A stretch of 35,649 nt of DNA from Methanosarcinales archaeon. Its GTDB lineage: Archaea; Halobacteriota; Methanosarcinia; Methanosarcinales; Methanocomedenaceae. The DNA lies in contig JAIOQW010000338.1 in NCBI GenBank assembly GCA_021108405.1, positions 1 through 35,649 of the forward strand, read 5' to 3'. The notes under the pieces were generated by a model. It worked only from the letters and a program-made list of their open reading frames with translations, was not told the origin of the DNA and searched no databases. The number at the start of each line of letters is the position of its first letter. The first letter of the stretch is position 1. Made by a program: the position numbers and the translations under genes. Below, one piece after another: positions 26,697-34,628 of the stretch.

Positions 26697-26784
26697 TTCT
26701 ATTTAAACTCCCAAATATACCTGTAACTTCTTACTTCATTCCCAGTTACTTGAATAGATATTACTATTGATTAAATACTTGAAC

Positions 26785-26958
26785 AAAATCCTCGCTAACG
26801 CTCGGATTTTCTTGACTGAGGCTCTTAAAAGAGCCGAAGGTTAGAAGATTCGTAAAATCTTTGTCTGACATTCCAGAGGAATGGAGGATTAGAAGATTCG
26901 TAGAATCTTCGCCTGAGGCGCTTAAAAGAGCCGAAGATTAGAAAATGCAAATCATTTT
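26785..26958. repeat. Modular array of short hairpins, first block
   Basis: The stem-loops follow one another: AAAATCC...GGATTTT, GGCTCTTAAAAGAGCC, GAAGATTCGTAAAATCTTT, CATTCCAGAGGAATG, GAAGATTCGTAGAATCTTC, GGCGCTTAAAAGAGCC and GAAAATGCAAATCATTTTC. They are joined by short linkers such as TTAGAAGATT. Most modules recur in the same order at 27281-27385. Confidence 0.85.
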
Positions 26959-27131
26959 CCAGTGTATATTATCTCATAGATTATATACTATAAAAAAGCA
27001 TGGTTTGGAGTGTATCTCTATTAACGTCACAGGTTTAAAGCATGTATAAACATCAAATACTAATCCATATTAGTACTAATTGTAATTAATCAACAATTAG
27101 GTGACTATTATATTATTTGTTGGTAAACTCA

Positions 27132-27199: not shown

Positions 27200-27280
27200 C
27201 TATTTTTCACCAATATGAATTGAAACGGTCTCGCAATTAGATAAATTATTTATATTAATATCACTAAGAACTATAAGAAT

Positions 27281-27385
27281 AAAATCCTCGCTAACGCTTG
27301 GATTTTCTTGACTGAGGCTCTTAAAAGAGCCGAAGATTAGAAGATTCATAGAATCTTTGTCCGACATTTTGCAGGAATGAAGGCT
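27281..27385. repeat. Modular array of short hairpins, second block
   Basis: It repeats 26785-26885 with few changes over about 100 bp: the AAAATCC...GGATTTT stem, the perfect palindrome GGCTCTTAAAAGAGCC, the GAAGATTCATAGAATCTTT stem and a degenerate CATTTTGCAGGAATG stem. It runs directly into element copy C. Confidence 0.85.
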
Positions 27386-27387
27386 AA

Positions 27388-27431
27388 GAAAATGTAAAGC
27401 ATATTCAGTATATCAAGTTATACTTGATATA
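27388..27431. repeat. Hairpin-plus-palindrome element, copy C
   Basis: The hairpin part has decayed (GAAAATG...CATATTC), but the palindrome is perfect here: TATATCAAG, TTATA, CTTGATATA (27409-27431). It lies 112 bp upstream of the first gene of the tubulin-like operon, in the same orientation as copies A and B. Confidence 0.75.
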
Positions 27432-27543: not shown

Positions 27544-28290
27544 ATGAGAAAATTGTTTCATTCCAAAATCAGTACGATTGGAAATATTAAGTATATTATG
27601 AGAATTATACCTAAGCTAGTATTGCTTTTTTTTTGTTTGGGAGTAATTTTCATAGAAGTATCAGCACTACAAACAGAGATGAAAATAATACCTCCTGAAA
27701 ATCCTAAGGAAGGTGAAGTAATAAATTTTACTATATCTGTTTTCGACTTTCCTCAAGGATATAATCTGTCTTTTGATACTGAGCTGGTGAGTTATGATGA
27801 TAATCCGATATATAACATAACAACAATTAATAAACAAGTTTATGGGAGAAATTTTGAAATCAATACTACTGGCCATGATATCATTACTATTCATATGGTT
27901 GGAAAAGTGCCAAAAATAACCGAAGTAAAACAATATGAAGAAATAACTCTTAAAAAATATTCTAAAACGACCGGGTATACTTATTATAGAATTGAATTAT
28001 TTGATAAAGAAGGAACTATTATTGATACAAATACACAGCCATTTACTATTGATGTTTCTGAGATCGAATTTTTTAACAATAAACTTAGTAAAATACACGA
28101 TGGATGGATAAGAAATTATTTACAGGGATTACACGACAAAGGTCTTGTCAATGAAGCAAATGAACTTGCAGATCATTGGATAGATAATAAAAAGATACCA
28201 GTACTTTGGTTTTTTATCTCACTCATAGGTGTGGCAATAATATTTTTTATCATTGGTATTAGAATAGGATATAGGAGGGAAGAATTATGA
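27544..28290 (+). CDS. Bitopic surface protein, first gene of the tubulin-like operon
   Basis: This 248-residue protein has an N-terminal signal sequence (hydrophobic core IIPKLVLLFFCLGVIF, ending VSALQ), an extracytoplasmic beta-rich domain (about 45-175; EMKIIPPENPKEGEVINFTI, Ig/CARDB-like in appearance), a short helical linker (180-215), a transmembrane helix (220-240) and the cytoplasmic tail RIGYRREEL. The ATG at 27544 is almost on top of a GGAG; ATG 27598 would give a shorter, more classical signal peptide. The family is not recognised. It overlaps the tubulin-like gene by ATGA, so it is probably a membrane receptor or anchor for the same system. Confidence 0.75.
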   Translation: MRKLFHSKISTIGNIKYIMRIIPKLVLLFFCLGVIFIEVSALQTEMKIIPPENPKEGEVINFTISVFDFPQGYNLSFDTELVSYDDNPIYNITTINKQVYGRNFEINTTGHDIITIHMVGKVPKITEVKQYEEITLKKYSKTTGYTYYRIELFDKEGTIIDTNTQPFTIDVSEIEFFNNKLSKIHDGWIRNYLQGLHDKGLVNEANELADHWIDNKKIPVLWFFISLIGVAIIFFIIGIRIGYRREEL

Positions 28291-31200
28291 ATAATAGAAA
28301 AGATAAGAAAACAGCTTTGCAGGTACCATCCAATTTGACTATTGTTGCCATTGGAGGGTGTGGAAAAGGATTAACATCAGAGATTTGCGAGCATGAATGG
28401 TTCTTAAAATATTATTTTAAAGATGGCTATCACTTAAAGATTTATACATTAGATACAGATGAAAATGAGAAAGAGCAAGATGAAGAACGAATAAAAGAGA
28501 TTGATCAAAGAATTAAGGAAATTGGAGGAGGGAGTAATGTAGAAACTTCTGTACTTTATCTTCCAAACTTAGCTACTATCTCACATGTTTCTGATTTAGC
28601 CAGTAAAGAGATAGCAGATAGAATTAAGGATAGAAATATAGAACCAAAGGTAGATGTGTGGTGGCTAAATGATGCGGAATATGGTATATCATTTGATGAC
28701 CTTAAGAAAATTGATCCTTTTTTGATTGATGATTTTGGCGGTGGAGTACATAGAAGAAGAGCTATTTCAAAGGCAATTTTTTATAAAGTCATAAGTGAAG
28801 GAGAAAGTTCAGGTTTTCCTACATTCAGTAGAGGTTCGATAGCAATAATTGTTGGTCTCGGTGGTGGAACTGGTTCTGGAATGGTGATAGATTTAGCAAG
28901 ATATATAAGGAGCTTGAGAGGGCCAGAGGCAGAAATATGGCTTTATGCAATTCTACCAACCACCGAAGAAGGCGAAAAGGAACAGCTTAATGCTGCAATC
29001 GCTTTAACCGAGCTTGAATATTTAAACCTGAAGGAGAGCCTCTTTAATTGTATTATATTAACATCTCTGGGACCCACTGGATTTAAAAGAGGTGAAGAGG
29101 CAAGGAGAGAAGTACAAGAATTTGATTCGATATTTCCTTATATATTTGTGAATTCTCTCCATACAGTAAGAAGAGATCTTGGTATCTTTGATGCAAGAAA
29201 ACCATTTTCATCTTTTATTTTTGCTGATGCTCATGTTATAGAATACCCAATTGAAGAACTTCGCAAATTAAAGTCTGAATTTGAAAAAGCAATCAATGAA
29301 ATAAAGAAGATCACTGACAACAGGAAAGAATTAAACCGGACTATAAGAGATTTTTTAGATAAGGCAAATCAGAGAAATGAAGGAATACCAACGAAAGAAA
29401 ACATAGATTTTGTAAAAAAAGAAATTGGAAACATGGAGAAAATATGGCAAAACGAGATTGGAGAGCTGCTTCAATATCAGACTATAGAAGGAATATTATA
29501 TTATATCAGTAACAATATACCTTTAGATATATTTCCGGATAAAACAAAGAAATATGATGATCTAACTGATTACCTCTCAAAACTAAAAGCCTTCTCACAA
29601 AGTGTTAAAGAAGAAGAATTAAGAGATGAAAGTGATAGAAAGCTATACAGGATAATTCCGGAAGCATTAGAAACTATTGAAGATACTGCAAAAATATTGA
29701 AGCGAATTTCCGGAATCGAAGATGAAATTCAACGAGTAGTATTAAATGAAGTATTAAGAGGCAAAGAAAACATAATATCATCAATAGGGGATCTACAAGG
29801 TAGAGTTAATATTCTTAGAGATGACATAAGGAATCTGGAAGATGAGATAGATATATGTAATAAAAAATCAAAGAAAATTGATAATCAGAAATCCGGAACT
29901 GAAAAAACTGTCAATAATAAGCTGGATGATATAGGAACAGACATTAATTCATTTACCAGTCTGGATATAAAAATCAGAGAGGTAGAGGGTCGGCAAGAAA
30001 ATCTCAAGATGCATATTGAGGAAATAATTTACAAATGTAAGACTGGTGAAATAAAAGGGGAAGATGAAGTAACTTATTTGCAATCCGCAGGAGTTGCTAA
30101 ACTTGAAAGTGAGATTGATTTGATTTCTCGCGAAATAGGTGAAGATTTAGAGGGATTAAAGTCTTTAATTTCGGCTATAGCTTTATATTATTACTATAAT
30201 TACAAATTAGAAGGGCTTGAAAGCAGAAAAATTCCGCAAAAGGCTATAGATGCTATTATAGGGAATGTAGAGAAGAGGAGAAGGAAATATGAAGCAATGA
30301 TAAGAGATAAAGAGAATCTCATAAAAAGAAATGCAAAATACTGGAATATTGCAATTCATAGCCCATTTGAACTTACTGTTGCAGATAATTTTTTAATTGA
30401 AGGGCTCAATAAAAAGATGGGAGATATCAGAAACAGGATGATAAATTCAATAAAATCTGATTTTGAAATTGAAGATGAAGAGCTTCATGAATTAGAAGAT
30501 ACTTTAAAACAAAATGATAAAGGAAAAATCAGAGGAGAATTAAGAGAGCAATTAATCAATATCTCTCTTCTAAGGGGAGGATATTATACTAAAAAAGAAG
30601 AAATTGAAAGTTTCATTAATAGTAAAAATGAAATAAAAAAGAAAAAAGAAATGGATTTAAAGGCTATGGATATGATTAATGAACTTGCAGAGGAAACATT
30701 CAATTATAGAAGAGATCTTAGCAGGCATTATGAGTTATATTATAATAATTTTGTTATAAGAAATGAAAATTTCACAGCTAGTAGTAAAACTATTAAAGGT
30801 CTATATTCAACAAGATTTGGTGAAATTAATCCAAAGGTGCTATCTCTAATAAGTGATGAATCAGAGATGGGAAACCTTGATAGGGATGAAAATGGAAAGA
30901 AAGAACTCGATAAACTTATTAGTGAGATCAAATCTTCATATACTCAACTGATTGATAATTATAAACTTGGAATTCATAACCTGACAATACCATTTGGCAC
31001 TACTGAAAGGTGGACCTTTGGAAAGGCCGGATTGGTAATATCTTCTACATCATCTTACATATCCAGTGAATTAGCAAGCAGTAAGAATAGTAAGGCAATT
31101 ACAGAAGAAATCAAAGAAACATTGGTATTAAGAAATAATAATGATGCAAGATTGGTTACACATAATTATGCAAAACCATGGGATATATCCTTAATATTCT

Positions 31201-31460
31201 TTGCAGCTGCAAGTTTCTTGGATAACATATCACCATTTACTGCTGGCGGAGGATATAGGGAGATGTATGAAAGGGATAAGGATAATATTTTACATCATGT
31301 ATTGTTGCTTCAACATGGTAAGTATATTGTTAGAAAGAAGCTATTGGAGCTTAATAAAGCCGGAGAAATAGCAAAGAGGGAGATGGGGGGTGAAAAGGTA
31401 AACAGCGAAATTCTAGATCTATATGAAGAAAAAGATATAAGAGGATCACTAACAGAATGA
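28287..31460 (+). CDS. Large tubulin/FtsZ-superfamily protein with long coiled-coil region
   Basis: This is a 1057-residue cytoplasmic protein. The N-terminal ~325 residues have tubulin-type GTP-binding features: the first loop IGGCGKG (22-28), DFGGGVHRRRAISKAIF near 145-160, the tubulin signature GLGGGTGSG (190-198) and the following PTTEEGEKEQLNAAIALTEL, typical of Tubulin_2/FtsZ-like families. Residues about 325-880 are Lys/Glu-rich, predicted coiled coil. A C-terminal domain (about 890-1057) contains TIPFGTTERWTFGKAGLV and HNYAKPWDISLIFFAAASF. I could not find the T7 loop NxDxx(D/E) used for polymer-dependent GTP hydrolysis. Genes on both sides overlap it by 4 bp. The best guess is a filament-forming or membrane-remodelling protein. 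Confidence 0.85.
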   Translation: MNNRKDKKTALQVPSNLTIVAIGGCGKGLTSEICEHEWFLKYYFKDGYHLKIYTLDTDENEKEQDEERIKEIDQRIKEIGGGSNVETSVLYLPNLATISHVSDLASKEIADRIKDRNIEPKVDVWWLNDAEYGISFDDLKKIDPFLIDDFGGGVHRRRAISKAIFYKVISEGESSGFPTFSRGSIAIIVGLGGGTGSGMVIDLARYIRSLRGPEAEIWLYAILPTTEEGEKEQLNAAIALTELEYLNLKESLFNCIILTSLGPTGFKRGEEARREVQEFDSIFPYIFVNSLHTVRRDLGIFDARKPFSSFIFADAHVIEYPIEELRKLKSEFEKAINEIKKITDNRKELNRTIRDFLDKANQRNEGIPTKENIDFVKKEIGNMEKIWQNEIGELLQYQTIEGILYYISNNIPLDIFPDKTKKYDDLTDYLSKLKAFSQSVKEEELRDESDRKLYRIIPEALETIEDTAKILKRISGIEDEIQRVVLNEVLRGKENIISSIGDLQGRVNILRDDIRNLEDEIDICNKKSKKIDNQKSGTEKTVNNKLDDIGTDINSFTSLDIKIREVEGRQENLKMHIEEIIYKCKTGEIKGEDEVTYLQSAGVAKLESEIDLISREIGEDLEGLKSLISAIALYYYYNYKLEGLESRKIPQKAIDAIIGNVEKRRRKYEAMIRDKENLIKRNAKYWNIAIHSPFELTVADNFLIEGLNKKMGDIRNRMINSIKSDFEIEDEELHELEDTLKQNDKGKIRGELREQLINISLLRGGYYTKKEEIESFINSKNEIKKKKEMDLKAMDMINELAEETFNYRRDLSRHYELYYNNFVIRNENFTASSKTIKGLYSTRFGEINPKVLSLISDESEMGNLDRDENGKKELDKLISEIKSSYTQLIDNYKLGIHNLTIPFGTTERWTFGKAGLVISSTSSYISSELASSKNSKAITEEIKETLVLRNNNDARLVTHNYAKPWDISLIFFAAASFLDNISPFTAGGGYREMYERDKDNILHHVLLLQHGKYIVRKKLLELNKAGEIAKREMGGEKVNSEILDLYEEKDIRGSLTE

Positions 31461-32842
31461 AGATTTATGGCACACAACGAAGGATACTGGAAGTAGTTAC
31501 TTTCGTTTCCGGTTTAGTTTTATCTTTATTTCTTATTTATATTTCAAATTATCTTTCGATAATAGAAATTCCACACACAATAGCAGTTTCTATTTCCTTT
31601 CTTTATGGGATATTGATGCTAATTGCTATTGCAATGATATTTGAAGAGGATTCAAGGGTTGCAGGAATACTGCTTGTTTCAATATCCATACCTTTATTAT
31701 TGTATTTTGCAACAAACGAATATATAGTATTTAAAGGTATATTAGCTGGGATCTGTATTGGTTTTATACTCAGTCTATATGCACTATTTGAAAATAGATT
31801 TGATATTCTTGCAAGGATTTCACGAGCAATAGTGACTGGTTTTTTCTTTATAATGATTGTGTATATTTGTTATGGGTTTGTAATGTTGATATACTCCTTT
31901 TCAATTATGCTTATAAAAAATTATATAATATTATTTATTATAGGTGGTGTATTATATTTATTATTGCAAAAGATGATAATTGGAATTAACAGTAAGGATG
32001 TTTTTATTTTCGGTCCGCCGAGCTCTGGAAAGACATATCTTCTACTTGCATTTAATGATTACTTTATTAATTTTTTCCATGGAACACATAATGAAGAAAT
32101 ATTTTCCGCACATGATGATGCCAGGGATCTTAAAATTGAGAATATGCTAATAACTGTTGAAAGAGGAGAAAGGATAAGAAGCACATATTCTGATGAGATA
32201 GCTATGTATACTTTAAGAGGAAAAAAAAAAGGTATATTCCCAATTGAACTTACAATGATAGATTATGGAGGTGAGCAAACTGAAAAAATACAACAAAGAT
32301 ATCAAGACATAGTATCTGATCTAACTGAAAATCTTAAAGAAAATGAATTTACCATCAAATATAAGATCGGAACCATGCAATTCTTGAAAAGTATTAAAAA
32401 AAAAACCTTTGAAAAAACACCGGAGTTAGCAGATAAAGTAGCCTCAGCATACCTGATAAAAAATTTGAAAAGTGCAGGGAAAATAATCTTTTTGATAGAT
32501 GGAAAATTAATATCAGGTTTTCATGAAAAAAATAAGGAAGAATTAATTGGATTATTTGGTTATTACGGAAGGATAATAGAAAAACTTGGAACCAATAAAA
32601 AATATGTGCTGGTAATTACAAAAACAGACGATTTTTCAGATTTATTAAATATTTCCGAAAAATCAGAAAAATCATTAGAAATAGAAAAAGACATTTATAA
32701 GATGTTCCAATCAATTGATACTTTTAAATCACTCGTACACAAATGTAAAAACCCATTATATTTATTTGCAGTTAGTGCAGATGCTACAGGCAGTCTGAAT
32801 CAAATATATCCATGGCAGGTTGGTCAAGTTGTCAATATTTAA
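31457..32842 (+). CDS. Polytopic membrane protein with P-loop GTPase domain
   Basis: This 461-residue protein begins with about six transmembrane helices (about 13-33, 41-61, 65-85, 90-110, 119-144, 149-171), followed by a cytoplasmic GTPase domain. Motifs are Walker A/G1 GPPSSGKT (186-193), a G3-like MIDYGGE with Asp269 (DxxG variant DYGG), and G4 TKTD (388-391) after LVIT. The G3-G4 stretch is unusually long (about 115 residues) with a Lys-rich helical insert. It may belong with the TRAFAC-type 'double-GTPase' (DO-GTPase) proteins or the distinct GTPase partnered with FtsZ-like proteins. It overlaps the tubulin-like gene by 4 bp and the next gene by 23 bp. Confidence 0.82.
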   Translation: MKIYGTQRRILEVVTFVSGLVLSLFLIYISNYLSIIEIPHTIAVSISFLYGILMLIAIAMIFEEDSRVAGILLVSISIPLLLYFATNEYIVFKGILAGICIGFILSLYALFENRFDILARISRAIVTGFFFIMIVYICYGFVMLIYSFSIMLIKNYIILFIIGGVLYLLLQKMIIGINSKDVFIFGPPSSGKTYLLLAFNDYFINFFHGTHNEEIFSAHDDARDLKIENMLITVERGERIRSTYSDEIAMYTLRGKKKGIFPIELTMIDYGGEQTEKIQQRYQDIVSDLTENLKENEFTIKYKIGTMQFLKSIKKKTFEKTPELADKVASAYLIKNLKSAGKIIFLIDGKLISGFHEKNKEELIGLFGYYGRIIEKLGTNKKYVLVITKTDDFSDLLNISEKSEKSLEIEKDIYKMFQSIDTFKSLVHKCKNPLYLFAVSADATGSLNQIYPWQVGQVVNI

Positions 32843-34628
32843 TTATGGAATTTACGATACAAGCGGGAGATTATTAAAAGGCCATTTAAAAGGATATAGG
32901 GATTTGGCATGGCAGTTAGACGTAAATATGGTTGCGTTATACTTTGAATCGAAAAATGAATATGTCATTTTAGGATGCCGTTTTATTGTACAGATAATAG
33001 GAGGAAGAGTAGAAAGAGTACTTTTTATTGTAAAATATCCGGTTAAAGAAATAAATTCAGATACGATATTGCAGTTGTATAAAAGAGCTGTAGAAGAGAT
33101 AGAGAGTTTAAAAGGAGTGAAATATAATGTCCTTGGACTTTGGAAAACCGGAGACATAGAAGATATTATTGATATCGAGACTATTGACAATATCTATGAA
33201 ATTATAGTTGGCAAACTTATTTCTAATGAGCAAATTGTTGTGAAATCATCAGATTTATCTCAAGGTATTTCCTTACTTGCAAAGGTAGTCCTGGAATTAA
33301 AGTCTGTATTATCTTTAGGTTATAAATTTATTATTTCAGAATCAGTCTTTAAGGCAGACCTGTTGATACAACCAAAAGAGGAACATGTAGACATTGACAT
33401 TGACAATAACCATGGCATAATGAAGTATGAGGAAAAAAGTAGATTTACGAAATTATATGGTATTTATAAAGAACTTATTTTCACACAAGGTGGAGACTAT
33501 AGCTTTAGGAGCAGAAATGGACTTTTAGATGAAATAATCAAGAGAGATGTTAAAGATTATGCTGATGATATTTTCAATCTCTATCAATATGACTTGGATA
33601 GACTTTTACTATTTAGTACCAGAAATCCGGATATCTTAATCCTTGTGATTAATCGGATTATTAAAGAGAATCTGGATATAAGTGGAATTCGGGATGAAAA
33701 TGCTGTGAAAATCATAGAGGAGCTAGTGCCTATAATTTGTAGTGAATCTATTAGCAGCACTATTGAAATTTTCTTGGCAAGCGTCTATAAAAATATAAAA
33801 GATTCGGATAAGAGGGAAATACAAAAATATTTGATAAAAAAAAATATTTTTTTGGAAGAAATTGTGCATGATGTTGTGAAACGAATTGCGAAAGAAAGAG
33901 ACAGTGAATTGTTATATATATTGGCTTGTAGGTCTTTTATTGATCCTGGAACTGCAAAAGAGTTTGATAGGATTGTAAAAAATGCTATAAATTCATTAAA
34001 TCAAAAAGAAGTCTTAAATTTCATAAAATTTTTACTTGATGAACCTGAGTTGAAGCCGGATGAAAGTGGGAAGATACTTATCAAGGCACTTTATAGCGAA
34101 ATTATTGGATATGGAAGTTCGATGAAGTTCACTAACAAGCACAAGGAAAAGTTAAGAGAATTTGGAATTACAACGCCTCTTATGGAAACGCAAAAGGGGG
34201 AGATAGAAATTAATAGAGCAACTAAGAAGGTATTTACTGTAATTATTATATTAATAATCTTCATTATAGGAATTGGAATAGGTGAGCATTACGAACCAAG
34301 CAATATAATTATGAATTATTTTAATACCTCATCAACTTCCAAACAAATCACCTCACCACCTGTAATAATAAATAATACTCCAGAAGAAGATGTGCGTAGT
34401 ACTATAGGCGAAGTAAAAATTTTTAGTGTTACTGCCAACCAATCAGTGAATATTACCTGGTTAAATAATGAATCACAGGTCCAACAGACAAACGAAAGTG
34501 TAACAAAAGCATCTTATACAAATAAATCTGTTGCTGCCGGTGTATGGAATATATCAGCGAAAATAGAAAATGCTAATGGAACAGACATCAAGACATGGGA
34601 ATGGCATGTGAACTCTACATCAACGTAA
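32820..34628 (+). CDS. Bitopic protein with cytoplasmic body and archaeal surface Ig-like domain
   Basis: This 602-residue protein has a cytoplasmic N-terminal domain (about 1-125; NYGIYDTSGRLLKGH, ARC-like beta pattern), a long all-helical part (about 200-460), one transmembrane helix (471-488; VFTVIIILIIFIIGIGIG) and an extracytoplasmic domain (about 520-602). That outer domain, with NQSVNITWLNNESQVQQTNE and GVWNISAKIENANGTD, is of the type found in methanogen S-layer and other surface proteins and has several N-glycosylation sites. The start is TTG at 32820, or TTG 32829; both lie inside the end of the GTPase gene. It probably ties the GTPase/tubulin machinery to the cell surface. Confidence 0.78.
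   Translation: MVKLSIFNYGIYDTSGRLLKGHLKGYRDLAWQLDVNMVALYFESKNEYVILGCRFIVQIIGGRVERVLFIVKYPVKEINSDTILQLYKRAVEEIESLKGVKYNVLGLWKTGDIEDIIDIETIDNIYEIIVGKLISNEQIVVKSSDLSQGISLLAKVVLELKSVLSLGYKFIISESVFKADLLIQPKEEHVDIDIDNNHGIMKYEEKSRFTKLYGIYKELIFTQGGDYSFRSRNGLLDEIIKRDVKDYADDIFNLYQYDLDRLLLFSTRNPDILILVINRIIKENLDISGIRDENAVKIIEELVPIICSESISSTIEIFLASVYKNIKDSDKREIQKYLIKKNIFLEEIVHDVVKRIAKERDSELLYILACRSFIDPGTAKEFDRIVKNAINSLNQKEVLNFIKFLLDEPELKPDESGKILIKALYSEIIGYGSSMKFTNKHKEKLREFGITTPLMETQKGEIEINRATKKVFTVIIILIIFIIGIGIGEHYEPSNIIMNYFNTSSTSKQITSPPVIINNTPEEDVRSTIGEVKIFSVTANQSVNITWLNNESQVQQTNESVTKASYTNKSVAAGVWNISAKIENANGTDIKTWEWHVNSTST

Follow-up and report, generated by a model that had tools for sequence, protein, structure and literature searches.

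An archaeal four-gene operon encoding a Tubulin_2 protein, a membrane GTPase that resembles DO-GTPases and a conserved surface-linked partner

We find that a 35,649-nucleotide stretch of DNA from a methane-oxidising archaeon, hereafter called the window, carries a real and conserved operon of four genes, A to D, which are consecutive open reading frames at positions 27544-34628 of the + strand; all features of the four genes given below are on this strand. The operon is an archaeal version of a kind of gene set that was described in 2010 and again in 2020, and is not a new kind. With moderate confidence we read it as an archaeal FtsZ-like 1 (Tubulin_2)/DO-GTPase system in which a GTP-driven, tubulin-like scaffold would be tied to the cell envelope.

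The operon and its products

The window is contig C18 of an archaeal genome of 3.67 Mb that is 99 % complete. As the original prediction from the bare sequence had it, the four genes overlap, by 4 bp between A and B (ATGA), 4 bp between B and C (ATGA) and 23 bp between C and D. Hydropathy gives two membrane segments for A (residues 21-39 and 221-239), none for B, six for C and one for D (471-489), in agreement with the claim that A and D both span the membrane. Related named genomes hold 14 loci with the order A-B-C-D, and some 20 further loci keep a partial set, which is either A-B-C or B-C plus a third gene of D type. The four genes are thus neighbours in relatives, as the original prediction required, and because this order is kept the operon is not a product of chance. 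The conserved order has changing flanks. For the window, these are about 850 bp of gene-free DNA upstream followed by a CNNM/CBS protein gene on the opposite strand, and a DUF2227 protein gene downstream. The GC content of the operon genes is 29-32 %, compared to 33-46 % for the other window genes measured. A tRNA search of the window found none. An intergenic repeat of about 120-180 bp has two copies upstream of the operon (window positions 26779-26960 and 27277-27393) and 44 matches genome-wide.

B (1057 aa, 28287..31460) is a Tubulin_2/FtsZl1 protein with a coiled coil and a helical C-terminal part, identified by Pfam, PDB profile matches, an AlphaFold model and Foldseek, and it carries a tubulin-type GTP site. 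Across 20 orthologues the T1 loop GGCGK (28353..28367) has G23, G24, G26 and K27 invariant, and the T4 loop GGGTGSG (28860..28880) has its five glycines invariant and its T and S nearly so. The E228 and N235 positions are likewise conserved throughout the alignment or almost so. B scores 46.8 bits against the Pfam family PF13809 (Tubulin_2, cut-off 27) and 30.4 bits against PF00091, slightly below the cut-off of 33. Among PDB sequences, a profile built from 20 archaeal B sequences matches TubZ, which is the best match, as well as archaeal FtsZ/CetZ and an Asgard tubulin. The AlphaFold model of B has a mean pLDDT of 81, and its best PDB matches by Foldseek are CetZ2, gamma-tubulin and FtsZ (probability 1.00, E from 6e-5). 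Membership of the tubulin superfamily, predicted at the outset together with a check by structure prediction, is supported by both the family score and the fold. These Foldseek alignments cover about 300-380 columns with a TM-score to the target of at most 0.45 and an rmsd of 6-9 A, which means that the tubulin fold superposes only in part on the model. Because superposition on whole tubulins is poor and the T6-H7 region and the C-terminal tubulin half are unrecognisable, polymerisation of B is a prediction. The source genome has four further tubulin/FtsZ matches besides B, and B need therefore not be the division FtsZ.

C (461 aa, 31457..32842) has six membrane segments followed by a GTPase domain related to DO-GTPases, as judged from hydropathy, Pfam and profile comparison. 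In an alignment of 18 orthologues we find the G1/P-loop GPPSSGKT (32012..32035), the G3/Walker B motif DYGGE (32261..32275) and the G4 motif TKTD (32618..32629; T388, K389 and D391 invariant). Most residues of the three motifs are invariant, with the consensus GPxxSGKT, DYxGE and TKxD, and the predicted six-helix membrane GTPase stands. The window C scores 24.3 bits against PF19993 (DO-GTPase2), below the cut-off of 27, and 18 of 18 C orthologues match this family at E<0.1 with a best value of 1.8e-6. A score of 24.3 bits is typical because the DO-GTPases of bona fide archaeal loci of the type described by Kaur et al. (L108 and L107) score 20-34 bits against this Pfam family; within the window's family, a DO-GTPase encoded next to GAP1 has 20.1 bits. 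The profile of C scores 38.8 against three archaeal DO-GTPases; shuffled columns reach 20.5 at most, and an unrelated control gives 16.6. On these sequence comparisons C resembles the DO-GTPases at the level of distant homology and would belong with them, a placement that is new here and that joins the 2010 and 2020 literatures.

D (602 aa, TTG start, 32820..34628) is composed of a cytosolic N-terminal domain with helical repeats, a membrane helix recognised by hydropathy (residues 471-489, 34230..34286) and a sequon-rich outer tail (34287..34625). The conserved N-terminal domain (residues 6-185, 32835..33374) is defined by a 28-member alignment, in which G16 and R63 are invariant in all 28 proteins from methanogens, ANME archaea and haloarchaea, and by profile matches beyond those of shuffled profiles: 55 against the haloarchaeal gene that follows the GTPase (shuffled maximum 18) and 32 against the Methanoperedens/Argoarchaeum set (shuffled maximum 16). 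The AlphaFold model has a pLDDT of about 90 across most of residues 6-450 and mostly below 50 in the tail.

The tail of the window D has 10 N-glycosylation sequons in 113 aa, or 8.8 per 100 aa, and the cytosolic part has none. In nearly all Methanosarcinaceae orthologues the tail has 4.5-18.6 sequons per 100 aa and the cytosolic part 0-1.2; a few proteins (L047, L070) have sequon-free tails. This concentration of sequons in the tail lends independent support to a topology with the conserved half in the cytosol and the tail outside. In each of the 8 pairs compared, conservation is lower in the tail than in the cytosolic part.

An Ig-like surface domain had been predicted for D. The tail of the window protein shows no such domain by Pfam and no confident AlphaFold fold. 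In relatives, PKD_4 is matched by one of 13 D proteins (Pfam), the tail of the L043 protein has a PKD-like stretch, and four of the five haloarchaeal third-gene proteins scanned have CarboxypepD_reg/Ig-like domains outside. The prediction thus holds for some members of the family and not for the conserved core of D.

A Foldseek search of the D fold against the PDB gave nothing below E 1e-3, and the N-domain profile matched no PDB sequence. Residues 8-95 of the model follow the order strand-strand-helix-three strands-helix, as in longin-like domains. A longin-like domain is not claimed; the longin-DENN GTPase-regulator complexes in the Foldseek list (C9orf72-SMCR8-WDR41, FLCN) lack significance. 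GAP1 was considered as well and set aside. GAP1 models matched none of 13 D proteins, a test of low power, and comparison with two archaeal GAP1 sequences, of low power because there were only two, gave a profile score of 11.5, within the shuffled range. To judge by its conservation and predicted topology, D is a distinct surface-linked partner common to methanogens, ANME archaea and, more distantly, haloarchaea, and this partner is new here.

A (248 aa, 27544..28290) has, from hydropathy and an 18-member alignment, an N-terminal signal/anchor segment, an outer region read from the sequence as beta-rich and a C-terminal membrane helix. A Pfam scan of the window A gave no family above cut-off, and A was not recognised in the haloarchaeal loci compared.

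Distribution, selection and gene neighbourhood

Methanoperedens, Argoarchaeum and their relatives have mostly A-B-C with a D-type gene. The usual haloarchaeal set is B-C with a D-type gene, and in some cases protein-kinase or PQQ-propeller proteins come next. Two haloarchaeal loci (L085:16286-18607, L090:16519-18864) illustrate such followers, which are either a PQQ-propeller protein that weakly matches an MIT domain or a surface protein that combines a protein kinase with CarboxypepD_reg.

The distribution is patchy and sometimes plasmid-borne. B is matched in 34 of the 186 genomes of the order, and within the window's family only in the window's own genus (2 of 17 genomes), with the flanking CNNM gene present in 17 of 17; in relatives the two genes that flank the operon sit on separate contigs. 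Plasmid copies occur in Methanohalobium and Halorubrum, and a Haloplanus plasmid has a tubulin-like gene with no GTPase gene annotated beside it. Most copies found belong to ordinary chromosomal genomes, and the phage records and viral contigs searched contained no copy. In a tree of B made by a quick method and with long branches flagged, a methanogen/ANME-2 type that includes the window is separated from a Methanoperedens-haloarchaea type. Methanomicrobiales appear at two places in this tree, which suggests transfer without proving it.

The nearest named relative of the window is 'ANME-2 cluster archaeon HR1', whose B is 95 % identical. Measured against a 95 %-identical sibling, dN/dS is 0.36 for A, 0.19 for B, 0.26 for C and 0.43 for D; values of 0.19-0.43 indicate purifying selection and hence that all four genes are maintained. 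Apparent frameshifts in this sibling (L036) had raised gene decay as a candidate, which we rejected since they are runs of N at assembly gaps.

Several loci fall outside this general picture. A contig binned as Methanophagales (ANME-1) has A-B-C with a B 71 % identical to that of the window (L057), which would be due either to transfer from one ANME group to another or to faulty binning. One methanogen genome (G080) has two diverged copies of the tubulin-like gene (L041 and L054), and the second of these (L054, the same place as L092) has no GTPase and adjoins a protein that we judged caspase-like by eye. A different conserved operon is found in an archaeal family (f10) and a relative (L118, L119, L120, L121, L122). 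It encodes a Tubulin_2 protein of about 900 aa scoring 75-97 bits, small membrane proteins of about 148, 350 and 430 aa and, beyond these in four of the five loci, a protein of about 300 aa that matches a tubulin domain in the one case scanned (L118). The proteins scanned from these loci include no DO-GTPase, no vWA and no homologue of A, C or D. The operon is possibly an undescribed two-tubulin system.

The original prediction noted that vWA and OmpA are missing next to the four genes, and Pfam and the neighbour scan agree. There is no vWA gene beside the window operon, and vWA is not among the 25 commonest Pfam families of 126 neighbour genes at the archaeal loci. OmpA-like domains have no Pfam match in A, D or their orthologues, and an OmpA-like protein is not expected because there is no outer membrane. 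The further idea that A and D stand in for vWA and OmpA fails: there is no homology, the conserved part of D lies in the cytosol, and variation is greatest in its surface part. FNIII (fn3) has no match in A or D, and no protein kinase gene lies beside the window operon.

PADLOC gave no convincing match for A to D. On the neighbour genes it gave few matches, mainly to PD-T4-6, PglW and Cas12/TnpB-like models; in our reading the PD-T4-6 and PglW matches are kinase-related. In this uncontrolled scan we see no obvious signal of defence islands around the archaeal loci. Loci of the type described by Kaur et al. exist separately. One, in a genome of the window's family (G015, L108:429-11478), has GAP1-N2 and GAP1-M, two DO-GTPases, fn3 and HSP70, and another, in a different archaeal genome (G401, L107:2880-12006), has GAP1-N2/GAP1-M, a DO-GTPase and a vWA fused to HSP70. 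Of 295 genomes of the phylum, only 3 gave a GAP1-N2 match.

Possible functions of the operon

From the observed parts, motifs, membrane topology, gene order and purifying selection we infer steps of assembly, switching and coupling. B would assemble at the inner face of the membrane, and C, cycling between GTP and GDP, would be the switch that recruits or releases it. The cytosolic domain and helical repeats of D would couple C and B, and the outer tail of D together with the beta-rich outer region of A would anchor the assembly on the S-layer side, which they may also sense. The likely purpose would be conditional remodelling or reinforcement of the envelope and not routine division, because the genome has its four other FtsZ/tubulin matches and the operon is missing from most relatives. 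Envelope remodelling or reinforcement is our first choice because the set is built around the membrane and the exterior, with no conserved effector, nuclease or defence neighbour seen.

Tentatively, D may represent an unrecognised family of GTPase partners that is the archaeal functional counterpart of GAP1. Events at the S-layer would then set the state of the membrane GTPase and hence the assembly of the tubulin-like scaffold, forming an outside-in cytoskeletal switch. One of the reviewers of the 2010 paper raised the question of how an FtsZ-like protein in the cytosol could act with proteins outside the membrane (PMC2875224). The four genes suggest a testable answer, a compact set in which D bridges both membrane sides. 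The question is directly testable since Tubulin_2 is present in Methanosarcina acetivorans, a laboratory organism for which genetics are available.

A serious rival, although we consider it rather unlikely, is that the operon serves conflict or defence: the outer tail of D or A would sense an invader or a neighbouring cell, C would switch, and the structure made by B would block or kill. We take it seriously because of the kinship of C to DO-GTPases, the variable outer domains, among them the fast-changing tail of D, and the patchy, partly plasmid-borne distribution, which within the window's family is limited to one genus. The operon GC below that of every other window gene measured and the link made by Kaur et al. 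between such systems and a multicellular habit, with Methanosarcina mazei named (PMC7159879), are in line with it. However, no GAP1, FNIII or effector domain was found in A or D, PADLOC recognises none of the four proteins convincingly, the neighbours of the loci are not obviously defence genes and the window flanks are housekeeping-like. Purifying selection on A to D does not discriminate between conflict and an envelope function.

The 2010 paper and its reviews also left open a membrane signalling or transport device, in which B would be a GTP-regulated adaptor that never polymerises. We regard this as improbable: the unrecognisable T6-H7 and C-terminal tubulin half, the long helical insertion in B and the suggestion of transport or signalling by a reviewer (PMC2875224) are consistent with an adaptor, but all tubulin-superfamily proteins characterised by 2010 form filaments (PMC2875224), and the conserved neighbours include no transporter or enzyme gene. 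A TubZ-like segregation or maintenance module of plasmid type, captured by chromosomes, is very improbable: TubZ heads the PDB profile matches of B, archaeal plasmids carry copies and large FtsZ-tubulin homologues are reported from Borg elements (PMC9605863, PMC9879509), but neither a centromere-binding partner nor a conserved array of repeats was recognised, B is partnered by membrane and surface proteins, and ordinary chromosomal genomes hold most of the copies found.

Relation to known systems

Few members of the tubulin superfamily have diverged as far as the FtsZl1/Tubulin_2 proteins, which are widespread in bacteria and archaea. In the literature searched we came across no experimental work on these proteins. 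The original prediction called the apparatus 'not described as such', which is mostly wrong given the FtsZl1 operons that include Methanosarcina (PMC2875224) and the tubulin/DO-GTPase/GAP1 systems (PMC7159879); its proposed relation to the Makarova-Koonin system is borne out, B being an FtsZl1 with an adjacent membrane GTPase.

Makarova and Koonin defined FtsZl1 in 2010 and proposed membrane remodelling (PMC2875224). Their family includes Methanosarcina acetivorans and other archaea, with a distinct archaeal branch; the T6-H7 region and the C-terminal domain could not be placed, and the GTPases of the archaeal systems are membrane-associated (PMC2875224). In their operons a vWA gene is present in the majority, frequent and not obligatory, and an OmpA-like gene in several genomes (PMC2875224). 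B has the same build at about 1050 aa, a Tubulin_2-type N-terminal FtsZ domain with GGGTG(S/T)G followed by a coiled coil and a helical C-terminus, and the distinct P-loop GTPase gene adjoins it, C being membrane-associated as noted for archaea. The window differs in having no vWA, OmpA or protein kinase and in having two partner families, A and D, outside Pfam. A and D may be the unnamed families A1/A2 of Makarova and Koonin's Figure 2C (PMC2875224).

Compared to CetZ, FtsZ and tubulin, B shares the GTP-binding N-terminal domain with GGGTGSG and the Foldseek probability noted above, whereas it is two to three times longer, has an unrecognisable C-terminal half and has other operon partners. 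Large FtsZ-tubulin homologues have been reported from every Borg element of Methanoperedens, and a Borg Tubulin_2 family is listed in a later paper (PMC9605863, PMC9879509).

In 2020 Kaur, Burroughs, Iyer and Aravind assigned DO-GTPases and GAP1, together with tubulin, vWA and FNIII proteins, to predicted conflict systems, and mentioned archaeal occurrences (PMC7159879). The window operon differs from the GAP1-N2-type systems in that D matches neither GAP1-N2 nor GAP1-M and that FNIII and vWA proteins are missing. It is like them in its tubulin homologue B and in C, which we count as a GTPase of the DO-GTPase family, being DO-GTPase-like with N-terminal membrane helices. D, which follows the GTPase gene, is multi-domain and, like some GAP1 proteins, has a membrane helix and then a variable outer part at its end. 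The descriptions by Makarova and Koonin and by Kaur et al. cover overlapping gene sets, and the window supports this link on the archaeal side.
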